A stretch of DNA of 64,000 nt, taken from NCBI GenBank assembly GCA_016874675.1, contig VGTL01000001.1:31191-95190 (forward strand), in the 5' to 3' direction. Below the pieces are notes generated by a model. The model was not told the DNA's origin. It was given only the letters and a program-made list of their open reading frames with translations, and did no database searches. Source of the stretch: Methanobacteriota archaeon. GTDB lineage: Archaea; Thermoplasmatota; DTKX01; VGTL01. The translations under genes and the position numbers were made by a program. Within the stretch, counting starts at the first letter, position 1, and each line of letters begins with the position of its first letter. Of the stretch, positions 27,942-63,288 are shown one piece after another.

Positions 27942-29015
27942 TCAGCGTGGCTTCAGGGCGTCCTGCATGATCTCGGCAAACGCGCCGGCGTCCAGCACCT
28001 GCCGCCAGTGGGGCATGCAGGAGCAACCGGCCGACAGGACCTTCTCGAGGTGCAAGACGTCTTGGGAGACGGAGAACTCCTCCAGGGCCGAAAGCACGGA
28101 GGCGTCGCACCCGCCGCAGTTTTGCGGCCCCCTGCGCCTGCCCGCTCCCGAGGGAGCGCAGACCAGCCGGGCCCCGGGCGCCGCCTCCCCGAGCCCCCGG
28201 CGCACGCGCAGCAGCGCCTCGGCGGCGCTCCAGAGCCAGGGGGGCCGGTAGAGACCGCGCCTCCAGAGCCGGTCCACCAGCGTGCCCCGCTGGACGTTCA
28301 CCGGGTTCAGGGACACCGTGTCGCTGAGCGGCGCCGCCCGGAGCGCGCTGGCCACCGCGTCCTCGACAGCCTCGCGCTCGGTGAGGAAGGGGGGCTTGAG
28401 CAAAAGGTAGGTCCGGACGCGGCCGCCCAGCCTGCGGACGAGGGTGGCCCCGTCGGCATAATCCGAGAACGTGAAGCCCTTCCTCACGGACCTCTCCAGC
28501 ACGCGGGGGGAGGCGCTCTCGAGGCCCAAAGCGACCTCCAGGCCCGGGCAGGAGGAGAGCGCGTCGCTGACGGCGCCCTCGGTCAGGAAGACTGGGCGGG
28601 ACTCGATCACCACCCGTCCGAACGCGCCGGAGAGCTCCCCCAGGATGCGCGCCCGGATGCCGGGAGGGACCTCGCCGTCGTCGAAGAAGGAGCCGGAGGT
28701 GTAGACCTTCGCGATCCGCTCGCCCCGGCGCCTTTGCAGGGCCTCTCCGAACTGGTGCAGGAGGTCCTCCCCGGACGCCGGGGCGGCCTCGTCGTGGTAG
28801 CCGCACATCGCGCAGCGCGCCCAGGAGCATCCCCGGGTCCGCAGGACGAGCACCCAGGCGCGGCATTCGTTCCCATCGAGCGAATCCCTCTCGGACCAGC
28901 AGGCGACGAAGTGGCGCCGGTCCCTCTCCGCCCTCCCGGGTCGCCCTGCCTCCGGTTCCTCGTCCTCCTGCGCCGGACCGTCCTCGTCCCCCGGGGGCCC
29001 GCTCCCGCCGCTCAG
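27942..29015 (-). CDS. Archaeosine synthase radical-SAM subunit (RaSEA/TIGR01210-like)
   Basis: WSERDSLDGNECRAWVLVLRTRGCSWARCAMCGYHDEAAP, LGLESASPRVLERSVRKGFTF, KPPFLTEREAVED; start inferred as CTG at 29015 (the track start at 28853 cuts off the conserved N-terminus). Confidence 0.85.
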   Translation of the reverse strand: MSGGSGPPGDEDGPAQEDEEPEAGRPGRAERDRRHFVACWSERDSLDGNECRAWVLVLRTRGCSWARCAMCGYHDEAAPASGEDLLHQFGEALQRRRGERIAKVYTSGSFFDDGEVPPGIRARILGELSGAFGRVVIESRPVFLTEGAVSDALSSCPGLEVALGLESASPRVLERSVRKGFTFSDYADGATLVRRLGGRVRTYLLLKPPFLTEREAVEDAVASALRAAPLSDTVSLNPVNVQRGTLVDRLWRRGLYRPPWLWSAAEALLRVRRGLGEAAPGARLVCAPSGAGRRRGPQNCGGCDASVLSALEEFSVSQDVLHLEKVLSAGCSCMPHWRQVLDAGAFAEIMQDALKPR

Positions 29016-30850
29016 CCCCCTCCCCCCCTGGTGGAGACATGGTGCCTCATCCGGACCGCCCCGCCCCTCCCGGCGCGCTCCATCTCCGCCGCCGACATCA
29101 GCGCCACCCCCACGCCCCGCAACTCGCCCCCGCGGGTCACCAGCACCTCGTCCCCCGGCCGGATGTCGGCTCCGGCCCGGACGACGCCCGGCGCGAACAC
29201 CGTCCCCGACGGACGGAAGTCGCCTATCTCCACCTCGTAGGCCGTGCGGCCCAGAAGCCTCCGTGCCCCCTCCATCGTCAGGGAGAGCAGCCCGCGCTCG
29301 CGGCCGAGCAGGGCGAGCTGGGTCCTCTGCCCGTCGGTGACGCGCAGGTCAATCCCGCGCCTGCGCACCTCGCAGCGTTCGGCCAGCGCCTCTCCGCCGG
29401 GGCCGAACTGGAACCGGGCCAGGGAGGCGAACCGCTCGCGGGATGCCTCGCGCCGGCCGACGCGCCCGTTCTCGTTCGACAGCGGCCGGAGCGCCCGGGA
29501 GAGCGCCGAGAGCGAGGCGGGCGAGGTGGCCCTCCGCCCTGCCGTGAAGACCGTGCCCGGCGGAAGGGCGCCGGCCAAAAAGTCCATGCCCGGAAGGTGG
29601 CACACCACCGCCGAGTACCCGCCCCGCCGGACGAAGTGCTCGAGCTGCCCCGAGACCATCCGCCTCTCGGTCTCGTCCCAGTCGCCGGTGACGGGGACGT
29701 CGTAGCTTCCGGCGGGATAGATGCTATCGAGCTCCAGGGGCACGATGCCCAGTGGCGAGGTCACCACCGCCTCGTGCACCGCGCCCGGGTTGCCGGCCCG
29801 GTCGGTGGCGGCCCGGAAGGCCCTGTGGGAGAGCGAATCCGAGTAGGGCTTCCGGGCGGAGCAGGGCAGAAGCAGCAGCACCGGCGAAGAGGGTGGCCGG
29901 CGGTAGCGCTCGAGCACCCGCCGCCGGAAGCGGACCACCTCCGGCCGGGAGAGCGAGGCGAGACCCAGCGCGTCCAGGCCGGCCGCCGCGGGCCGGGCGA
30001 CCGGGAAATAGCGCTCGCAGAAGTCGTGGTGGTGCAGGTCGAGGTGGCGAAGCAGCGAGACCTGCCAGGCCTCGGAGAGGCGGCCCTCCACGAGCTCCCT
30101 CAGCCGCCCGCGGCGGACGGCGGCCCGGACGGTGCGGACCTCGGAGAGGGCCGCAAAGCAATTGTGAAGGTAGACCGCCTCCGGCCCCAGGGCGCCGCCC
30201 TCGCAGGCGGGGCAGTGGCAGAGCCCCTCCTCGGCGGCGTGGGCCTTCCATCCCGGAAAGAGCCGGACCCCCAGCCGGGCCGCCGCGAGAAGGGGAGCCG
30301 AGTCGAGAAGGTCCACGCCGCAGTAGGCCAGCAGGGCGATGTGGGCCGGGTCCCCCAGCCCCGGGGCGTAGACTAGCCGGCCGAATCCGGCGGCCTGCTT
30401 GAGCCGGACCAGGTCCGCCGCCAGCCCTCGCGGGCGCAGAGTCCCCCCCAGCGCGCCCGGGAAGAGCAGGAGTTCGGAGAGGGCCTCCTCGATGCGCTCC
30501 GGGAACTCGCCCGGGACCGGGAGCACCGGGCCGCCCGACCGGCGGAAGCCCTCCAGGGCCGCCTCGAAGGATTCGCCCGGGCGCGCCTCCAGCCCGGAGG
30601 GGACGTTGGGAAAGGCCGGGATGGCCGGGGCCGGCCCGCTGGCCTCCCGTTCCAGGAACCACGACCCGCCGGAGGAGAGCGTGAACCTTCCCCCGACCGG
30701 CCCCCCGGCCGAAAGATAACACTCCCCGCGCTCGAAGAGGGGCAGTCCCCCGGACCGCAGGAAGAGGATGTTGGGCGTGACGGCGGAGAGCCCGTCGCAG
30801 GTCCACCTCGCCTCCCGGGCGAGGCCGTCCCGGGCCAGTATCTCTATCAT
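29012..30850 (-). CDS. arcS: Archaeosine synthase ArcS (TGT-like plus PUA)
   Basis: VLLLLPCSARKPYSDSLSHRAF, ELDSIYPAGSYDVPVTGDWDE, C-terminal PUA-like domain. Confidence 0.88.
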   Translation of the reverse strand: MIEILARDGLAREARWTCDGLSAVTPNILFLRSGGLPLFERGECYLSAGGPVGGRFTLSSGGSWFLEREASGPAPAIPAFPNVPSGLEARPGESFEAALEGFRRSGGPVLPVPGEFPERIEEALSELLLFPGALGGTLRPRGLAADLVRLKQAAGFGRLVYAPGLGDPAHIALLAYCGVDLLDSAPLLAAARLGVRLFPGWKAHAAEEGLCHCPACEGGALGPEAVYLHNCFAALSEVRTVRAAVRRGRLRELVEGRLSEAWQVSLLRHLDLHHHDFCERYFPVARPAAAGLDALGLASLSRPEVVRFRRRVLERYRRPPSSPVLLLLPCSARKPYSDSLSHRAFRAATDRAGNPGAVHEAVVTSPLGIVPLELDSIYPAGSYDVPVTGDWDETERRMVSGQLEHFVRRGGYSAVVCHLPGMDFLAGALPPGTVFTAGRRATSPASLSALSRALRPLSNENGRVGRREASRERFASLARFQFGPGGEALAERCEVRRRGIDLRVTDGQRTQLALLGRERGLLSLTMEGARRLLGRTAYEVEIGDFRPSGTVFAPGVVRAGADIRPGDEVLVTRGGELRGVGVALMSAAEMERAGRGGAVRMRHHVSTRGGGG

Positions 30851-47099: not shown

Positions 47100-47410
47100 G
47101 GGAAGGGCAGCAAGGCAGCAAGGCAGCAAGGCAGCAGGGGAAGGCAGAAAGGCAGCAAGGCAGCAAGGCAGCAAGGGTGGGCAGGAAGGCAGAAAGGCAG
47201 AAAGGGAGAAAGGGCCTGGTCGTCGTCCCTTGCTGCCTTTCTGCCTTGCTGCCTTGCTCCCTTGCCCCCTTGCTCCCTTGCTGCCTTGCTGCCTTGCTCC
47301 CTTGCCCCCTTGCTCCCTTGCCCCCTTGCTCCCTTGCCCCCTTGCTCCCTTGCTGCCTTCCTGCCCACCCTTGCTGCCTTGCTGCCTTGCTGCCCGCTGC
47401 CTTTGCCCGA
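47100..47410. repeat. Tandem-arm intergenic hairpin 11
   Basis: Left (aa)ggcagcaaggcagcaaggcagcaaggcagc...; apex gggcctggtcgtcgtccc; right ttgctgcctttctgccttgctgccttgctccc... Confidence 0.92.
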
Positions 47411-54427: not shown

Positions 54428-55108
54428 TCAGAGGGACTTCAACCTGTCTATCAGAACATCCATGTGGAGACCGGTGGTGACCAGCGGTATCCTCTCTATC
54501 TCGGCCAGCCGGACCGCGAGCTCGTCGATTCGCTCGGGCCTGTGGAACACGACAATGGCGGGCTTCATCGGGTGGGAGCGGATGGCCACCATGGGCGAGC
54601 GGCCGTAGCGGACCCCCGTGAATATGATGGCCCTCTCCGAGGTCCAGCCGTACACCCGCAGGTAGTCGAACGCGCTCAAGGAGGTGATGGCCTTGAGCGA
54701 GTCGAGCACCGTGTAGCCGTAGATGTCCCGGTCGGCCCGGTCGGAGCAGGCGACCACCTTGCCCTCGATGGTCTTTATGAACCGGGAGGCCGCGATGCCT
54801 ATCGGGTACTCCTGGATGGCGAAGATGGCCTCGGCGGGGCCCATCTTGCTGAAGCGCTTGAGCACCGGCCCGCCGCGCCGCCGGTCTATCTCGAGTATCG
54901 CGCCCACGATGCGCCGGAGCGTCCTTATGCCCGGGGAGCGCCGCCTGCCTTTCTCGTAGTCGGAGATTATCGAGGGGGAGCGGCCCAGGGCCTGCGCGAG
55001 CTCGTTTTGGGAGATGTTGAACGCGTCCCTCCACTTGCGCAGGGTCTTCCCGGGCTCGGCCGAGAGCACGATCTCGCCGGCCATCTTCTCGGCCAGGTCC
55101 TGGCTCAT
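54428..55108 (-). CDS. XRE-type HTH transcriptional regulator with C-terminal sensor-like domain
   Basis: [39 protein letters not shown]. Confidence 0.88.
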
Positions 55109-55162: not shown

Positions 55163-55555
55163 ATGGCGAACTGGGGGCAGCGGGCAGCAAGGCAGCAGGG
55201 CAGCAGGGGAAGGCAGAAAGGCAGCAAGGCAGCAGGGCAGCAGGGGAAGGCAGAAAGGCAGCAAGGCAGCAAGGCAGCAGGGCAGCAGGGCAGCAAGGGA
55301 AGGCAGAAAGGCAGCAAGGCAGCAGGGCAGCAGGGCAGCATGGGAAGGCAGGAAGGAGGAAACGTAGTCCATCCCTTGCTGCCTTGCTCCCTTGCTCCCT
55401 TTCTCCCTTTCCCCCTTGCTGCCTTGCTCCCTTGCTCCCTTTCTCCCTTTCCCCCTTGCTGCCTTGCTCCCTTGCTCCCTTTCTCCCTTTCCCCCTTGCT
55501 GCCTTGCTCCCTTGCTGCCTTGCTCCCTTGCTGCCTTGCTCCCTTGCTGCCCTTT
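55163..55555. repeat. Tandem-arm intergenic hairpin 12 (longest)
   Basis: Left units GGCAGCAA/GGCAGCAGG; right arm holds repeated blocks cttgctgccttgctcccttgctccctttctccctttcccc. Confidence 0.92.
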
Positions 55556-55594: not shown

Positions 55595-56596
55595 GTGGAG
55601 CTTTCCGATTTCGACTACGACCTGCCCCGGGAGCTCATCGCCCAGGAGCCGCTGGACGACCGGGGGGGCTCCCGCCTCATGGTCCTTGACGGTGACCGGG
55701 TGCGCCATCGGGCCTTTTCGGACCTTTCGGGGTTCCTCCGGCCCGATGACGTGCTCGTGCTCAACGACTCGCGCGTCGTCCCGGCGCGCCTTCTCGGCAA
55801 GCGAGCCACCGGGGGGAAGGTGGAGCTTTTGGTGCTGGGCACGCGAGGGCCGGTGGCCGAGGCCCTGGTCCGGGCGAAGCCCCTCCGGCCCGGAGAGCGC
55901 CTCTCGCTCGGGGAGGGCCGGTGCGCCGTCGAGGAGCGGGTGGCCGGCGCCCGGTACAGGCTGCGCTTCGAGGTCCCCGGGGGCCTGGCCCGCTTCCTCC
56001 GAAGGCGCGGCGAGATGCCCACGCCGCCCTACATCCGCAGGAAGCTCGGGCGCCCGGAGCGCTACCAGACGGTGTTCGCCCGGGACGCGGGCTCGGTGGC
56101 GGCCCCCACCGCCGGACTGCACTTCACTCCCGCGATGCTCGACTGCATGCGGGCCTCCGGAGTGACCGTGGCGTTCGTCACCCTCCACATCGGCCCGGCC
56201 ACCTTCCAGCCCGTCAGGGCCCGCGACGTCATGGACCACCGCATGGAGCCGGAGCACTACCGCATCGGCGGCGAGGCGGCGGCCGCGGTCAACGGGCGCC
56301 GGGGCAGGCTGGTGGCGGTCGGGACCACGGTGGTGAAGGCCCTGGAGAGCGCCGCCCGGCCCGACGGGACCGTGCCCGAATCCGAGGGCTGGAGCGACCT
56401 GTTCATCCGCCCCGGCCACGAGTTCCGGGCGCGGCCGGACGCGCTGCTCACCAACTTCCACCTCCCCCGCTCGACGCTCATCATGCTGGTCAGCGCGCTG
56501 GTCGGCCGGGAGAGGCTCCTGGCGGCCTACGCCGAGGCCGTGAGGGAAAGATACAGGTTCTACAGTTTCGGGGACGCGATGCTGTGCCTGCTCTGA
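55595..56596 (+). CDS. queA: S-adenosylmethionine:tRNA ribosyltransferase-isomerase
   Basis: DFDYDLPRELIAQEP, LNDSRVVPARL, MPTPPYIRRKLG...YQTVFA, AAPTAGLHFT, LTNFHLPRSTLIMLVSAL; GTG start. Confidence 0.96.
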   Translation: MELSDFDYDLPRELIAQEPLDDRGGSRLMVLDGDRVRHRAFSDLSGFLRPDDVLVLNDSRVVPARLLGKRATGGKVELLVLGTRGPVAEALVRAKPLRPGERLSLGEGRCAVEERVAGARYRLRFEVPGGLARFLRRRGEMPTPPYIRRKLGRPERYQTVFARDAGSVAAPTAGLHFTPAMLDCMRASGVTVAFVTLHIGPATFQPVRARDVMDHRMEPEHYRIGGEAAAAVNGRRGRLVAVGTTVVKALESAARPDGTVPESEGWSDLFIRPGHEFRARPDALLTNFHLPRSTLIMLVSALVGRERLLAAYAEAVRERYRFYSFGDAMLCLL

Positions 56597-56607
56597 GGGT
56601 CGGTTGA

Positions 56608-57729
56608 ATGTACAGCCTGGAGGCGGTGGACGGGAAGGCGCGCGCCGGGGTGCTGGCGACGGCCCACGGCAGGGTCCCGACGCCGGCGTTCATGCCCGTG
56701 GCGACCCGGGCGGTCGTGAAGACCCTCACGCCCGAGGAGGTCTACGAGCTGGGGGCGCGGGCGCTGATCTGCAACGCCTTCCACCTCCACCTGCGTCCCG
56801 GTATCCCGCTCGTGCGCCAGATGGGCGGTGTCCACGAGTTCATGGGCTGGGGCGGTACGGTGTTCTCCGACAGCGGGGGGTTCCAGCTGATCCGGAGCGG
56901 CTTCGACCTTCGGGTCCGCGACAGCGGGATACGCTACCGCAACCCCCAGACGGGCTCCGTGGAGGAGCTTGCGCCCGAACTGAGCGTCCGGATGCAGCGC
57001 GAGCTGGGCTCGGACGTGGCGATGGTGCTGGACCAGTGCCCCCGCTACGGGACCTCCCCGGAGGGAATCCGGGAGGCGGCCCGGCGAACGATCGACTGGG
57101 CCCGGCGGGCGGTGGACGTCGGGCCGGACCCGGACGGCCAGGGCCTCTTCGGGATAGTGCAGGGCGGGTGGGACGAGAGGCTTCGAAAGGAGTGCGCCGA
57201 CGCCCTGGTCTCGCTGGGCCTGGACGGTTTCGGCATCGGCGGTCTCTCCATCGGCGAGCCCCGCGAGAGGATGCTCCAGGCGATGGGCTGGGCGCTGGAG
57301 GCCCTGCCCGCCTCCAAGCCCCGCTACCTGATGGGCGTGGGCTCGGCCGCCGAGCTCCTGGAGGCCGTTTCCGGCGGCGTCGACCTCTTCGACAGCGCCT
57401 TCCCCACGCGCAACGCGCGCCACTGGACCGTGATGACCGCCTCGGGCAACTTCGCCCTGGGGAGGGCTGACCACTCCTCGGCCGGCGGGCCCCTCGAGGA
57501 GGGCTGCGCCTGCCCGACCTGCCGGCGGTTCACCCGGGCGTACCTGCATCACCTGTGCCGGGACAACGACCTGCTCGGAATGCGCCTCGTCTCGGTCCAC
57601 AACCTGTTCTTCGTCCAGGAGCTCATGCGCGACATGCGGGAGGCCGTCCGGCACCGGCGGTTCGGGGCGTTCCGGGAGGCCTTCCTGGCCGGCCACCGAA
57701 CGGCTGGCGCGACGCAAGAGGAAGAATAA
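56608..57729 (+). CDS. tgt: tRNA-guanine transglycosylase, bacterial-type
   Basis: TPAFMPVATRAVVKTLTPEEVYELGARALICNAFHLHLRPG, VFSDSGGFQ, GIVQGG, zinc site CACPTCRRFTRAYLHHL. Confidence 0.95.
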   Translation: MYSLEAVDGKARAGVLATAHGRVPTPAFMPVATRAVVKTLTPEEVYELGARALICNAFHLHLRPGIPLVRQMGGVHEFMGWGGTVFSDSGGFQLIRSGFDLRVRDSGIRYRNPQTGSVEELAPELSVRMQRELGSDVAMVLDQCPRYGTSPEGIREAARRTIDWARRAVDVGPDPDGQGLFGIVQGGWDERLRKECADALVSLGLDGFGIGGLSIGEPRERMLQAMGWALEALPASKPRYLMGVGSAAELLEAVSGGVDLFDSAFPTRNARHWTVMTASGNFALGRADHSSAGGPLEEGCACPTCRRFTRAYLHHLCRDNDLLGMRLVSVHNLFFVQELMRDMREAVRHRRFGAFREAFLAGHRTAGATQEEE

Positions 57730-59518: not shown

Positions 59519-62500
59519 TTATCCGGCGCGGCCCTCCTCCACCTCTTCCACGAAGCACTGGGTCTCCCGGCCGACGCGCCTGACGTTGATCACCCGGGCG
59601 CTCATCATGATGTTGATGTGGTAGTGCACGGTCGGGGTGCTCAGGCCTATCCGCCGGGCGATCTCCTTCTGGGAGATGCCGGGGTTCTCCCGGATTATCT
59701 TGAGTATCTCGTGCTGGATGTGGTTCATGCGCAGCACGAGCTCCTCGGAGGGCTCGGGGACCTTCATCTCCCGCGGGTAGAAGCGCTTGAAGCGCCCGTC
59801 GGCCACGGACTTGATGAACTCCTCGCGCTCGAGGGTCTTGAGGTGGTAGACCAGCGTGCCGTTCTTCAGGGAGAGCGCCTTCTTTATCGAGTTGTAGTGC
59901 TCGCCGGGATTGGCCTTTATGTAGCCGTAGACCTGGCCGCGGACGAAGTGGTCCAGTATGTCGTCCTTTTTTATCTTCGTGTACAGGGGCACGAAGAGGA
60001 ACGACAGGAGCCAGTACTTCCCGTACTCGGTGCCGCCGCCCAGCGCGCCGGCGACCATGAGGAGGGCCGAGCCGCCGGCCACGGCGACCACGAGCGGGGC
60101 CAATGGCGCGGCCGCGGGGGCCTCCTTTCCGCCGATAATGACGCGCTCGAGGAAGATGTTGTTCCCCTCATCGCGCTCGAGCACGGAGTGCTCCGTGTCC
60201 GCCTCGAAGCGGAGCAGGTGGTCGCCCGGCGTGGGCGTCCAGCCGAACGTGGCGGTCTTGGAGGAGCCGGCCGGTATGAGCAGTATGCGCTCGGACCGCG
60301 CCGCGGCCCCGTCGACCGCGAACCCGACCACGACATTGCGCGCCGGGGCCTCCCCGGTGTTGGTGACGGTGACCGTGGCCAGGACGGCGTTCCCGGCCTG
60401 GAATCCCCTCGGTGCGTAGGACACCCCGAGCGAGAGGTCGGGAAGCAGGAGCCCCGCCCTGAACGCCAGCCTCTCCCGGAGGCCGCTGGGGGATGCCGCC
60501 ACGACCTGGATGTCCGACCAGCTCTCCGCCGCCGCGAACGGGACCCCGACCTCCAAGACCAGGTCGGCGATTCGGCCGGGCCGGACCTCCAGGGGCCCAG
60601 TCGAGCCGGTGGCGGGGTCGACGACGGAGGCGGTCCATCCAGGAGGGGCCTCCGTCCCGAGGGTGACGATGTCGGCGCCGTTGCCCAGGTTGCGCAGGTG
60701 GAGCACGGCCACGGCCAGGTCCCCCGGGGCACCCCGGACTGTGGTCGACGGGGCGGTCAGGGCCAGGCCGAACGTGCGCTCGACGACCGCGGTGATGTCC
60801 GCCTTGGCCCGCGCGCCCGACCGGCCGGTCAGGATCGCCGCGACCTTGTATTCTCCCGCCTGTGCATCCGGCGGCGGGGAGACCACCAGGGTCCATTGCA
60901 CCGTGCCGCCCGGAAGGACCGTCCTTTGGTCGGAATAGGCCCCGTCCATCTGCGAGATGCCGCTCCATCCGGAAGGGAGCTCGAGCCCGAGCCCGATGTC
61001 GTCGGGCTCGTTCCCGGTGTTGGTGACGGTGAGCAGGGCGCTCATCCGGCCCCCCGGCAGGCCGCTTACTGTCCGCTGGAGCACGGAGGCCTCCAGCCCC
61101 GGTGCCGGCAGCGCCAGCGCCGTGACCGTCGTCGAGTCGCTTGAGCTTCCATCCAGGGATGCGGCGACCACCCGGACCACGAACCGTCCGCTGGCCGTCG
61201 GCGGCGCGGAGACCGAGAGGGTCGCTTTCGCCGTCTCGCCGGCGCCGAGCTCCAGGAACGAGGGGTCCACCGAGGCCCTCCAGCCCGCAAAGCCCGCGAT
61301 GACCTCGACCACCACACCGGCCGGTCCGGGAGAGGTCCCGCCGTTTTGAATCTCGATTTCGAAATCGGTCGTGCCGCCGGGCGGCACCGGTTTCGCCGGC
61401 TCGGACGTCCGGACCGAAAGTTCCACGCCGGGAGAGACCAGCACCGATCCGCTTGCGGCGACCACCGCCCCGGTCTCGAGCGAACGGGCGATAACCGTGA
61501 AGTCCAGCGTCTGCCCGGCGGTTGCCGCGGGCAAGACCTGCGCGCTCACCGGCACGGTGGCGCTGCCCGACCACGGGACGGTCGCTAGCTCGGCCCCCGG
61601 CAGGACGGAGAGCGGTCCCCCGGAGGTGGCTGTCAGCCGGACCCGCTCGGCGCTGTCGCCGAGGTTGCGCAGATTCAGCTCGAAGTGCACGCTGGTGCCG
61701 GGCGCCGCCTGGAGGGCCGGCGGGCCCATCGAGGGTTCGATGCCCCGGCGCACCTTGAGCTCCAGCGGTATGACCAGCTCGGATGAGAAGCGCGGGTTGT
61801 TGAGGGAGGTCACGAGGACCCGCAGGAAGCCCGTCGGGGGCCCGGAGCCGTCCTCCGGCCCCGAGAGCCTCACCAGTAGCTCCGCTGTGCCGTCACCGGC
61901 CGGGAGCTCCGCCTCGCCCGACGTGAGGGACGCACCCCACCCCGCCGGAAGGCCGGCGGTCTCGAGCCCCAGGGAGAGCGTGTCCGGCAGTCCGCCGGTG
62001 TTTGAAAGCCGAATGGAGATCGAGGAGGTCCCGTGGGGCCGGACCACGACCGGACCCGCCGGTTCCCGGGCCTCGAAACCGAAGGTGTGGACGCGGGAGA
62101 GCCTCAGGGACCCGCCCGACGGCCAGGCGGCCCAGGTCCTCCCGGAGGACTGGACGGTCGAGGGCGCCGACGAGGCGGAGGCGGCCACCGCCACTCTGGA
62201 GACGGGTGGGTAGGCCTCCCAGGCCGCCGTGTCCACCGCGGCGAGGAAGGTCTCGGGAAGCCCGTTGCGTAGCTCGACCCAGCACAGCAGGGCCGCGCCG
62301 TCGGCCTGGACGGAGATGGATGGGCCCTGCACGGCGTCCTCCCCGGAGCTGACATGGATGGAATCCGCCATACCGCCGGATATCCTGCAGGCCACGATGC
62401 GTCCGGGCCGCCCGGCCTCCCCGCCCTTCCAGGCGAGCACCGTCGACCCCAGGGGGCCCGCGGCGACCACCGGCATCGCTCCCGCCGGCATCAGAGGGAT

Positions 62501-63244
62501 CGGGGTGCGGTGGAGCACGGCCCCGGCGGGGTCGAGCTCGATGTGCAGGCCGCCCGTCGTGGTGGACAGGACGACGAGGCAGCGGCCGTCGGGCGCCACT
62601 TGGACCGTCCCGTCGAGGAGGGCGCCATGGCCGGTGGATTCCAGCACCGTTTCCGAGACCACCGCGCCCTCGCCGTCGACGGCCGCCAGCACGAAGGCAT
62701 AGCCGCCGGCTGGGGGTTCCCGTGAGGTGTATCCGACGGCCAGCCCGTCGGGGCCGGCCGCAATTGTCGGTCCGTGGGCCCCGTCGGGATTGGAGCGAAG
62801 GACCCTGTCCACGAGCACCGTTCCGCCCCGGGCCGAGGTCTTGCGAAGGTGGATGTCCGTGCCGGAGGAATCCCAGACTGTCCAGAGGTTGCCCGCACCG
62901 TCGATCGCAAAGGAGCTGGCCGCTCCCGGAGAGGTCCAGAAGGTCGGGGTTTCCCGCCCGAGGAGCCTCGGCGCGGTGAGCGGCCGGCCGGCGGCGTCCA
63001 GCCACGATTGCCAGAGCCCGTCGGCGTCGTAGAAGAGCGCCAGCGAGCCGTCGGGCGCGGCAAGAAGGGTGGCCCGGGAGGGGGCTTTGGACGAGGAGGC
63101 GACCTCGACCGGAGTGCCCCATTCCAGGCCGGCACGGGGGTCGATGTGCGCCGGGCCCTCTGCGGGAGCGGCGGGCAGGCTCACCAGTAGCAGCCAGCCG
63201 ACGACCAGCAGTGCTGCTGGCATCCGGAATGCCCGACCGCGCAT
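59519..63244 (-). CDS. Membrane-tethered regulator: extracellular propeller plus NEW3/CARDB-like repeats, TM, two wHTH domains
   Basis: Signal peptide MRGRAFRMPAALLVVGWLLLVSLPAAPAEG; Ig-like repeats; TM LAPLVVAVAGGSALLMVAGALGGG; LSLKNGTLVYHLKTLEREEFIKSV and IARRIGLSTPTVHYHINIMMSARVI. Confidence 0.88.
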   Translation of the reverse strand: MRGRAFRMPAALLVVGWLLLVSLPAAPAEGPAHIDPRAGLEWGTPVEVASSSKAPSRATLLAAPDGSLALFYDADGLWQSWLDAAGRPLTAPRLLGRETPTFWTSPGAASSFAIDGAGNLWTVWDSSGTDIHLRKTSARGGTVLVDRVLRSNPDGAHGPTIAAGPDGLAVGYTSREPPAGGYAFVLAAVDGEGAVVSETVLESTGHGALLDGTVQVAPDGRCLVVLSTTTGGLHIELDPAGAVLHRTPIPLMPAGAMPVVAAGPLGSTVLAWKGGEAGRPGRIVACRISGGMADSIHVSSGEDAVQGPSISVQADGAALLCWVELRNGLPETFLAAVDTAAWEAYPPVSRVAVAASASSAPSTVQSSGRTWAAWPSGGSLRLSRVHTFGFEAREPAGPVVVRPHGTSSISIRLSNTGGLPDTLSLGLETAGLPAGWGASLTSGEAELPAGDGTAELLVRLSGPEDGSGPPTGFLRVLVTSLNNPRFSSELVIPLELKVRRGIEPSMGPPALQAAPGTSVHFELNLRNLGDSAERVRLTATSGGPLSVLPGAELATVPWSGSATVPVSAQVLPAATAGQTLDFTVIARSLETGAVVAASGSVLVSPGVELSVRTSEPAKPVPPGGTTDFEIEIQNGGTSPGPAGVVVEVIAGFAGWRASVDPSFLELGAGETAKATLSVSAPPTASGRFVVRVVAASLDGSSSDSTTVTALALPAPGLEASVLQRTVSGLPGGRMSALLTVTNTGNEPDDIGLGLELPSGWSGISQMDGAYSDQRTVLPGGTVQWTLVVSPPPDAQAGEYKVAAILTGRSGARAKADITAVVERTFGLALTAPSTTVRGAPGDLAVAVLHLRNLGNGADIVTLGTEAPPGWTASVVDPATGSTGPLEVRPGRIADLVLEVGVPFAAAESWSDIQVVAASPSGLRERLAFRAGLLLPDLSLGVSYAPRGFQAGNAVLATVTVTNTGEAPARNVVVGFAVDGAAARSERILLIPAGSSKTATFGWTPTPGDHLLRFEADTEHSVLERDEGNNIFLERVIIGGKEAPAAAPLAPLVVAVAGGSALLMVAGALGGGTEYGKYWLLSFLFVPLYTKIKKDDILDHFVRGQVYGYIKANPGEHYNSIKKALSLKNGTLVYHLKTLEREEFIKSVADGRFKRFYPREMKVPEPSEELVLRMNHIQHEILKIIRENPGISQKEIARRIGLSTPTVHYHINIMMSARVINVRRVGRETQCFVEEVEEGRAG

Positions 63245-63288
63245 CACGGCTACCCTCTGTCCCTTTAATCTAATAAACATGCTGGAGG

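Follow-up and report, generated by a model that had tools for sequence, protein, structure and literature searches.

Late queuosine genes of probable long standing beside the archaeosine pathway in a Thermoplasmatota archaeon

In a Thermoplasmatota archaeon, adjacent queA and tgt genes probably represent, on the basis of sequence comparisons, a long-established copy of the late queuosine pathway that belongs to this phylum and stands beside the archaeosine pathway. The 7-deazaguanine modifications of tRNA are usually split by domain, queuosine being made in bacteria and eukaryotes and archaeosine in archaea. The window, i.e. the whole stretch of 64,000 nucleotides analyzed here, covers the final 64 kb of a contig of 95 kb from a metagenome-assembled genome (G000) which is 94% complete and 0.9% contaminated, for an assembly of 3.36 Mb.

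The first gene, queA (55595..56596, + strand, 333 aa, GTG start), encodes a tRNA preQ1(34) S-adenosylmethionine ribosyltransferase-isomerase and is followed, 11 nt 3', by tgt (56608..57729, + strand, 373 aa), which encodes a bacterial-type tRNA-guanine(34) transglycosylase; the two genes are likely co-transcribed. Family membership was judged by the NCBIfam equivalog cut-offs, which both products pass. Over residues 1-331, QueA scores 393.6 bits against NF001140 (cut-off 324, E=6.4e-118) and 337.9 bits against TIGR00113 (cut-off 267.45). It also matches Pfam PF02547 (E=8.5e-115) and aligns over its full length with the solved QueA of Bacillus subtilis and others in the PDB. Its predicted activity is the SAM-dependent formation of epoxyqueuosine on preQ1-tRNA. 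Tgt scores 395.6 bits against the G34-specific family TIGR00430 (cut-off 306.75) and merely 125.9 bits against the archaeal TgtA family TIGR00432, far under its cut-off of 350. The adjacency of queA and a bacterial-type tgt in an archaeal context, which had been read from the sequence in a preliminary description, is thus confirmed. Compared with the bacterial queuosine pathway (QueA, bTGT and QueG or QueH), the enzyme families and active-site motifs are identical in kind, and the two genes are adjacent as in many bacteria; in contrast, the host is an archaeon and QueF, QueG and QueH were not found in its genome.

Alignment of Tgt with PDB entries extends nearly end to end, both with the Thermotoga maritima enzyme (2ash) and with E. 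coli-type Tgt. The motifs SDSGGFQ (residue 87), LDQC (141) and GGLSIGEP (211) are kept, as are LFDSAFPTRNAR (260) and CxCxxC (300) ... SVHN (329), and the catalytic Asp residues, the CxCxxC...His zinc site and the preQ1-type pocket residues are all present in these alignments. In bacterial Tgt, the residues numbered Cys158 and Val233 in the Zymomonas mobilis enzyme favour preQ1 over queuine (PMC3660597). The archaeal protein has Cys (in LDQC) and Ile (in GGLSIGE) at these positions, the aligned T. maritima enzyme supporting the correspondence of the GGLSIGE motif to the Val233 site. These two residues suggest that Tgt would insert preQ1 in preference to queuine.

Upstream of the pair, Tandem Repeats Finder detected an 8-bp repeat in two arrays that face each other directly before queA (55183..55554); before these comes a divergent gene for an HTH_3 regulator (54428..55108, - strand; Pfam HTH_3 E=8.9e-11). 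As far as can be told, the arrays lie outside the queuosine pathway. Like facing arrays are found at positions 47106-47391 of the window, the repeat in both places being GGCAGCAA, then TTGCTCCC/TTGCTGCC. The 8-bp repeat recurs on contigs C41 and C124 of the same genome, close to the contig ends, where it may break the assembly. A scan for sigma-70 promoters and terminators near queA returned nothing beyond chance, archaeal promoters being outside its scope. Downstream, positions 59519-63280 (- strand) encode a secreted protein of 1253 aa in which NPCBM_assoc and CARDB domains are combined with winged-helix domains at the C terminus; in another genome of the class (G005), a homologue is encoded beside tgt.

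G005, which is 99% complete and belongs to a different genus of the family, shows the same gene order, i.e. queA, tgt, the gene for a 1250-aa secreted protein on the strand opposite to the pair and a short conserved ORF; upstream of queA-tgt it also has a related regulatory gene. The QueA proteins of the two genomes share 58% identity by tblastn and 65% over tree columns. In a tree of 86 QueA sequences, 47 canonical archaeal rows, including Thermoplasmatota, Methanoperedens, Hydrothermarchaeota and others, split from the bacterial rows with an SH-aLRT support of 95 under LG and of 77 under a mixture model with the divergent paralogs left out. Since support falls with the better model, a single archaeal QueA branch is favoured rather than firmly shown. 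The Tgt tree sets 34 archaeal rows apart from the rest at an SH-aLRT of 99. In both trees the bacterial rows are the closest relatives of the query only, so that the trees point to no donor and give no direction for an ancient transfer. GC at the third codon position is 0.93 in queA and tgt, equal to that of arcS and RaSEA (0.92-0.93). A recent transfer from bacteria is not favoured, because QueA and Tgt group with archaea and their composition matches that of neighbouring genes.

QueA and Tgt being families best known from bacteria, contamination or a chimeric contig was considered as their source, and the preliminary description had named a chimera as one finding which would overturn its reading. 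This explanation is extremely improbable. The same contig carries archaeal FEN1, HMG-CoA synthase, riboflavin synthase, ArcS and RaSEA, contamination of the genome is estimated at 0.9%, and synteny with G005, composition and the archaeal placement of both proteins all contradict it. Genes, neighbourhood, conservation and archaeal grouping are observed here, and queA-tgt looks like an old and widespread archaeal possession.

Two archaeosine genes lie in the same window, as the preliminary description had stated. The RaSEA gene (27942..28853, - strand), encoding the archaeosine radical-SAM protein, has a start codon that may be slightly upstream, and its product scores 298 bits against TIGR01210 (cut-off 212). 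The adjoining arcS (29012..30850, - strand) encodes the alpha subunit of archaeosine synthase, which matches NF040592 over its full length with 408 bits, just below the 440-bit cut-off, and whose TGT-like domain gives a weak match to PF01702. A TgtA-type TGT is also present in the genome, on a separate contig (G000:C6:66404, a 694-aa open frame). With a TgtA-type enzyme, ArcS and RaSEA all found, as in the euryarchaeal archaeosine pathway, that pathway is represented by its known late enzymes, here alongside genes of the G34 pathway. Synthesis of preQ0 is represented by QueC (G000:C4:49408; TIGR00364, 205.8 bits) and by QueE, assigned by reading the ORF which adjoins queC on contig C4. The earlier proposal of two 7-deazaguanine tRNA modifications fed by a shared preQ0 pool holds for the gene complement, since QueA, Tgt, ArcS, RaSEA, a TgtA-type enzyme, QueC and QueE occur in one genome; the modifications themselves are predicted.

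Of 390 genomes from the phylum, 81 have a match to PF02547, a minority of these matches being a divergent paralog. Co-occurrence was counted by hand in 80 chosen genomes of the phylum, of which 39 have a canonical QueA, 16 a divergent QueA-like protein and 25 no QueA. QueH or QueG was found in 36/39, 0/16 and 1/25 of these groups, respectively, and a G34-type Tgt in 37/39, 0/16 and 1/25. For canonical QueA versus none, the Fisher test gives p ~1e-13 for QueH/QueG and likewise for G34-type Tgt, values which overstate independence because the genomes are related and no kinship correction was applied. The last enzyme is usually QueH in this phylum; QueG was found in only two genomes, both from one family.

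The divergent QueA-like gene is found in families f7, f15 and f27 (L181:9372-10394, - strand; L194:9606-10625; L195:9000-10055), where it adjoins a short-chain dehydrogenase gene, accompanied in f7 and f15 by an HTH regulator. None of the 16 genomes carrying it has a G34-type Tgt or QueH, and it probably has a different function. One further genome (G014:C13:37417-39296; L145, L210) encodes, beside a PF02592 transporter gene, a bacterial-type Tgt without QueA; this Tgt groups with bacterial Tgt and looks like a separate acquisition for the salvage of a queuosine precursor.

The preliminary description had included a preQ1-type branch, which the data do not support. In the genome studied and the four further class members searched, no QueF was found with either Pfam PF14489 or a phylum-specific profile (A1), built from nine sequences of the phylum, which recovered the weak known positives included; the same five genomes gave no match to the QPTR transporter family (PF02592). 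In this class, no known enzyme or searched transporter provides the preQ1 needed by Tgt, so that the preQ1 branch is a requirement of the chemistry rather than something shown by the genome. The gap extends beyond the class: among the genomes with canonical QueA, QueF is present in 25/39 and missing in 14/39, across several families and including near-complete genomes, while QueC is found in nearly all of them.

The first explanation for this gap, plausible though somewhat short of an even prospect, is that queuosine formation depends on salvage, preQ1 being imported via an unrecognised transporter, after which Tgt and QueA (and QueH in the relatives) would finish the modification. In two other QueF-less families (G293 and G360), a PF02592 (QPTR/YhhQ) gene lies near queA-tgt, which suggests salvage of a precursor there. 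In the QueF-less genome G112, the gene directly 3' of queH (L178:10017-11932) encodes an MFS-like protein, the family being read from sequence, which is a candidate precursor transporter. It has been shown that an MFS protein moves preQ0/preQ1, and many predicted salvagers, even bacterial ones, are without known transporters (PMC11130926). Against such import stand the lack of any PF02592 match in the five genomes of the class and the organism's own synthesis of preQ0, as indicated by QueC, so that import would cover only the next intermediate.

Alternatively, a reductase unrelated to QueF might convert preQ0 to preQ1. This would account for QueF-less genomes in several families which retain QueC, and the pathway has known non-homologous replacements, such as QueF-like for ArcS (PMC5485725). 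However, in the QueF-less families the neighbourhoods of queA, tgt, queH and queC held no conserved candidate for such a substitute, and a highly divergent QueF could have escaped detection. A new reductase is rather unlikely, less likely than import.

A second gap concerns the last step. In the genome studied, neither QueG nor a convincing QueH was found, the latter having been sought with Pfam as well as by using the G005 protein as query (E up to 10). QueH is present in three relatives from the class (G005, G026 and G035), each of which keeps the queA-tgt pair. The peptidase gene preceding queH in G005 corresponds to one near the start of contig C41 in G000, where it is followed by a repeat array and an apparent transposase start at the contig end, and the genes from the other side of G005 queH are on a 7-kb G000 contig with different further neighbours. 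As relatives have QueH and the syntenic region is broken or rearranged, loss of QueH and an assembly gap are both possible. In G005, queH (L164:8993-10598, - strand) comes after the gene for a DsbD-like membrane protein, 4 nt apart, and its product carries a low-complexity insert of ~60 aa.

The failure to find QueF, QueG and QueH together in one genome would fit a decaying pathway, in which QueF and QueH have been lost and QueA-Tgt is a remnant, or in which Tgt inserts preQ0 only, a base that bacterial TGT is able to use (PMC5485725). Such decay is improbable, more so than a new reductase: both genes are intact and their products retain the conserved motifs, three relatives have the pair together with QueH, and there is no known use of preQ0 for QueA.

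For a long-established queuosine pathway, we infer the chemistry and the target tRNAs from the enzyme families. The preQ0 made with QueC and QueE would feed both branches. Tgt would swap G34 for preQ1 in tRNAs with GUN anticodons, and QueA would move the ribosyl part of SAM onto preQ1 and rearrange it, leading to epoxyqueuosine-34. In the class relatives, QueH would then reduce epoxyqueuosine to queuosine, this enzyme not being seen in G000. In the same cell, TgtA would place preQ0 at G15 and ArcS with RaSEA would convert it to archaeosine. Dual Q34/G+15 modification is accordingly a prediction from gene content. The full proposal, that one Thermoplasmatota class draws on a single preQ0 pool for both queuosine-34 and archaeosine-15 and obtains preQ1 via an undescribed enzyme or importer, is put forward tentatively, as somewhat doubtful when taken as a whole.

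The core idea of a bacterial queuosine pathway in archaea is not new: a 2021 paper described QueA, QueH-like proteins and Tgt from 34 genomes of archaea, of which 12 belong to DPANN, and its figure names Methanosarcinales (PMC8204110). A search of a limited literature collection yielded neither a report on Thermoplasmatota nor one of a tRNA analysis. The Thermoplasmatota genes resemble those of DPANN and Methanosarcinales in being of bacterial type, and likewise QueH rather than QueG is the usual last enzyme; they differ in that their genomes also carry the archaeosine pathway and in that QueH was not found in G000. Queuosine genes had been regarded at the outset as unusual for archaea. Their coexistence with archaeosine genes stands, but given these reports and their spread across Thermoplasmatota, the genes themselves are not exceptional. 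The advance over the known archaeal cases is a better-defined pathway gap: the repeated absence of QueF provides a precise missing step and indicates the genomes where the reductase or transporter might be sought. If tRNA analysis confirms both modifications in one cell, the division between domains would no longer hold in many members of this archaeal phylum, and the position-15 and position-34 transglycosylases would have to keep their bases and targets apart in one cytoplasm.
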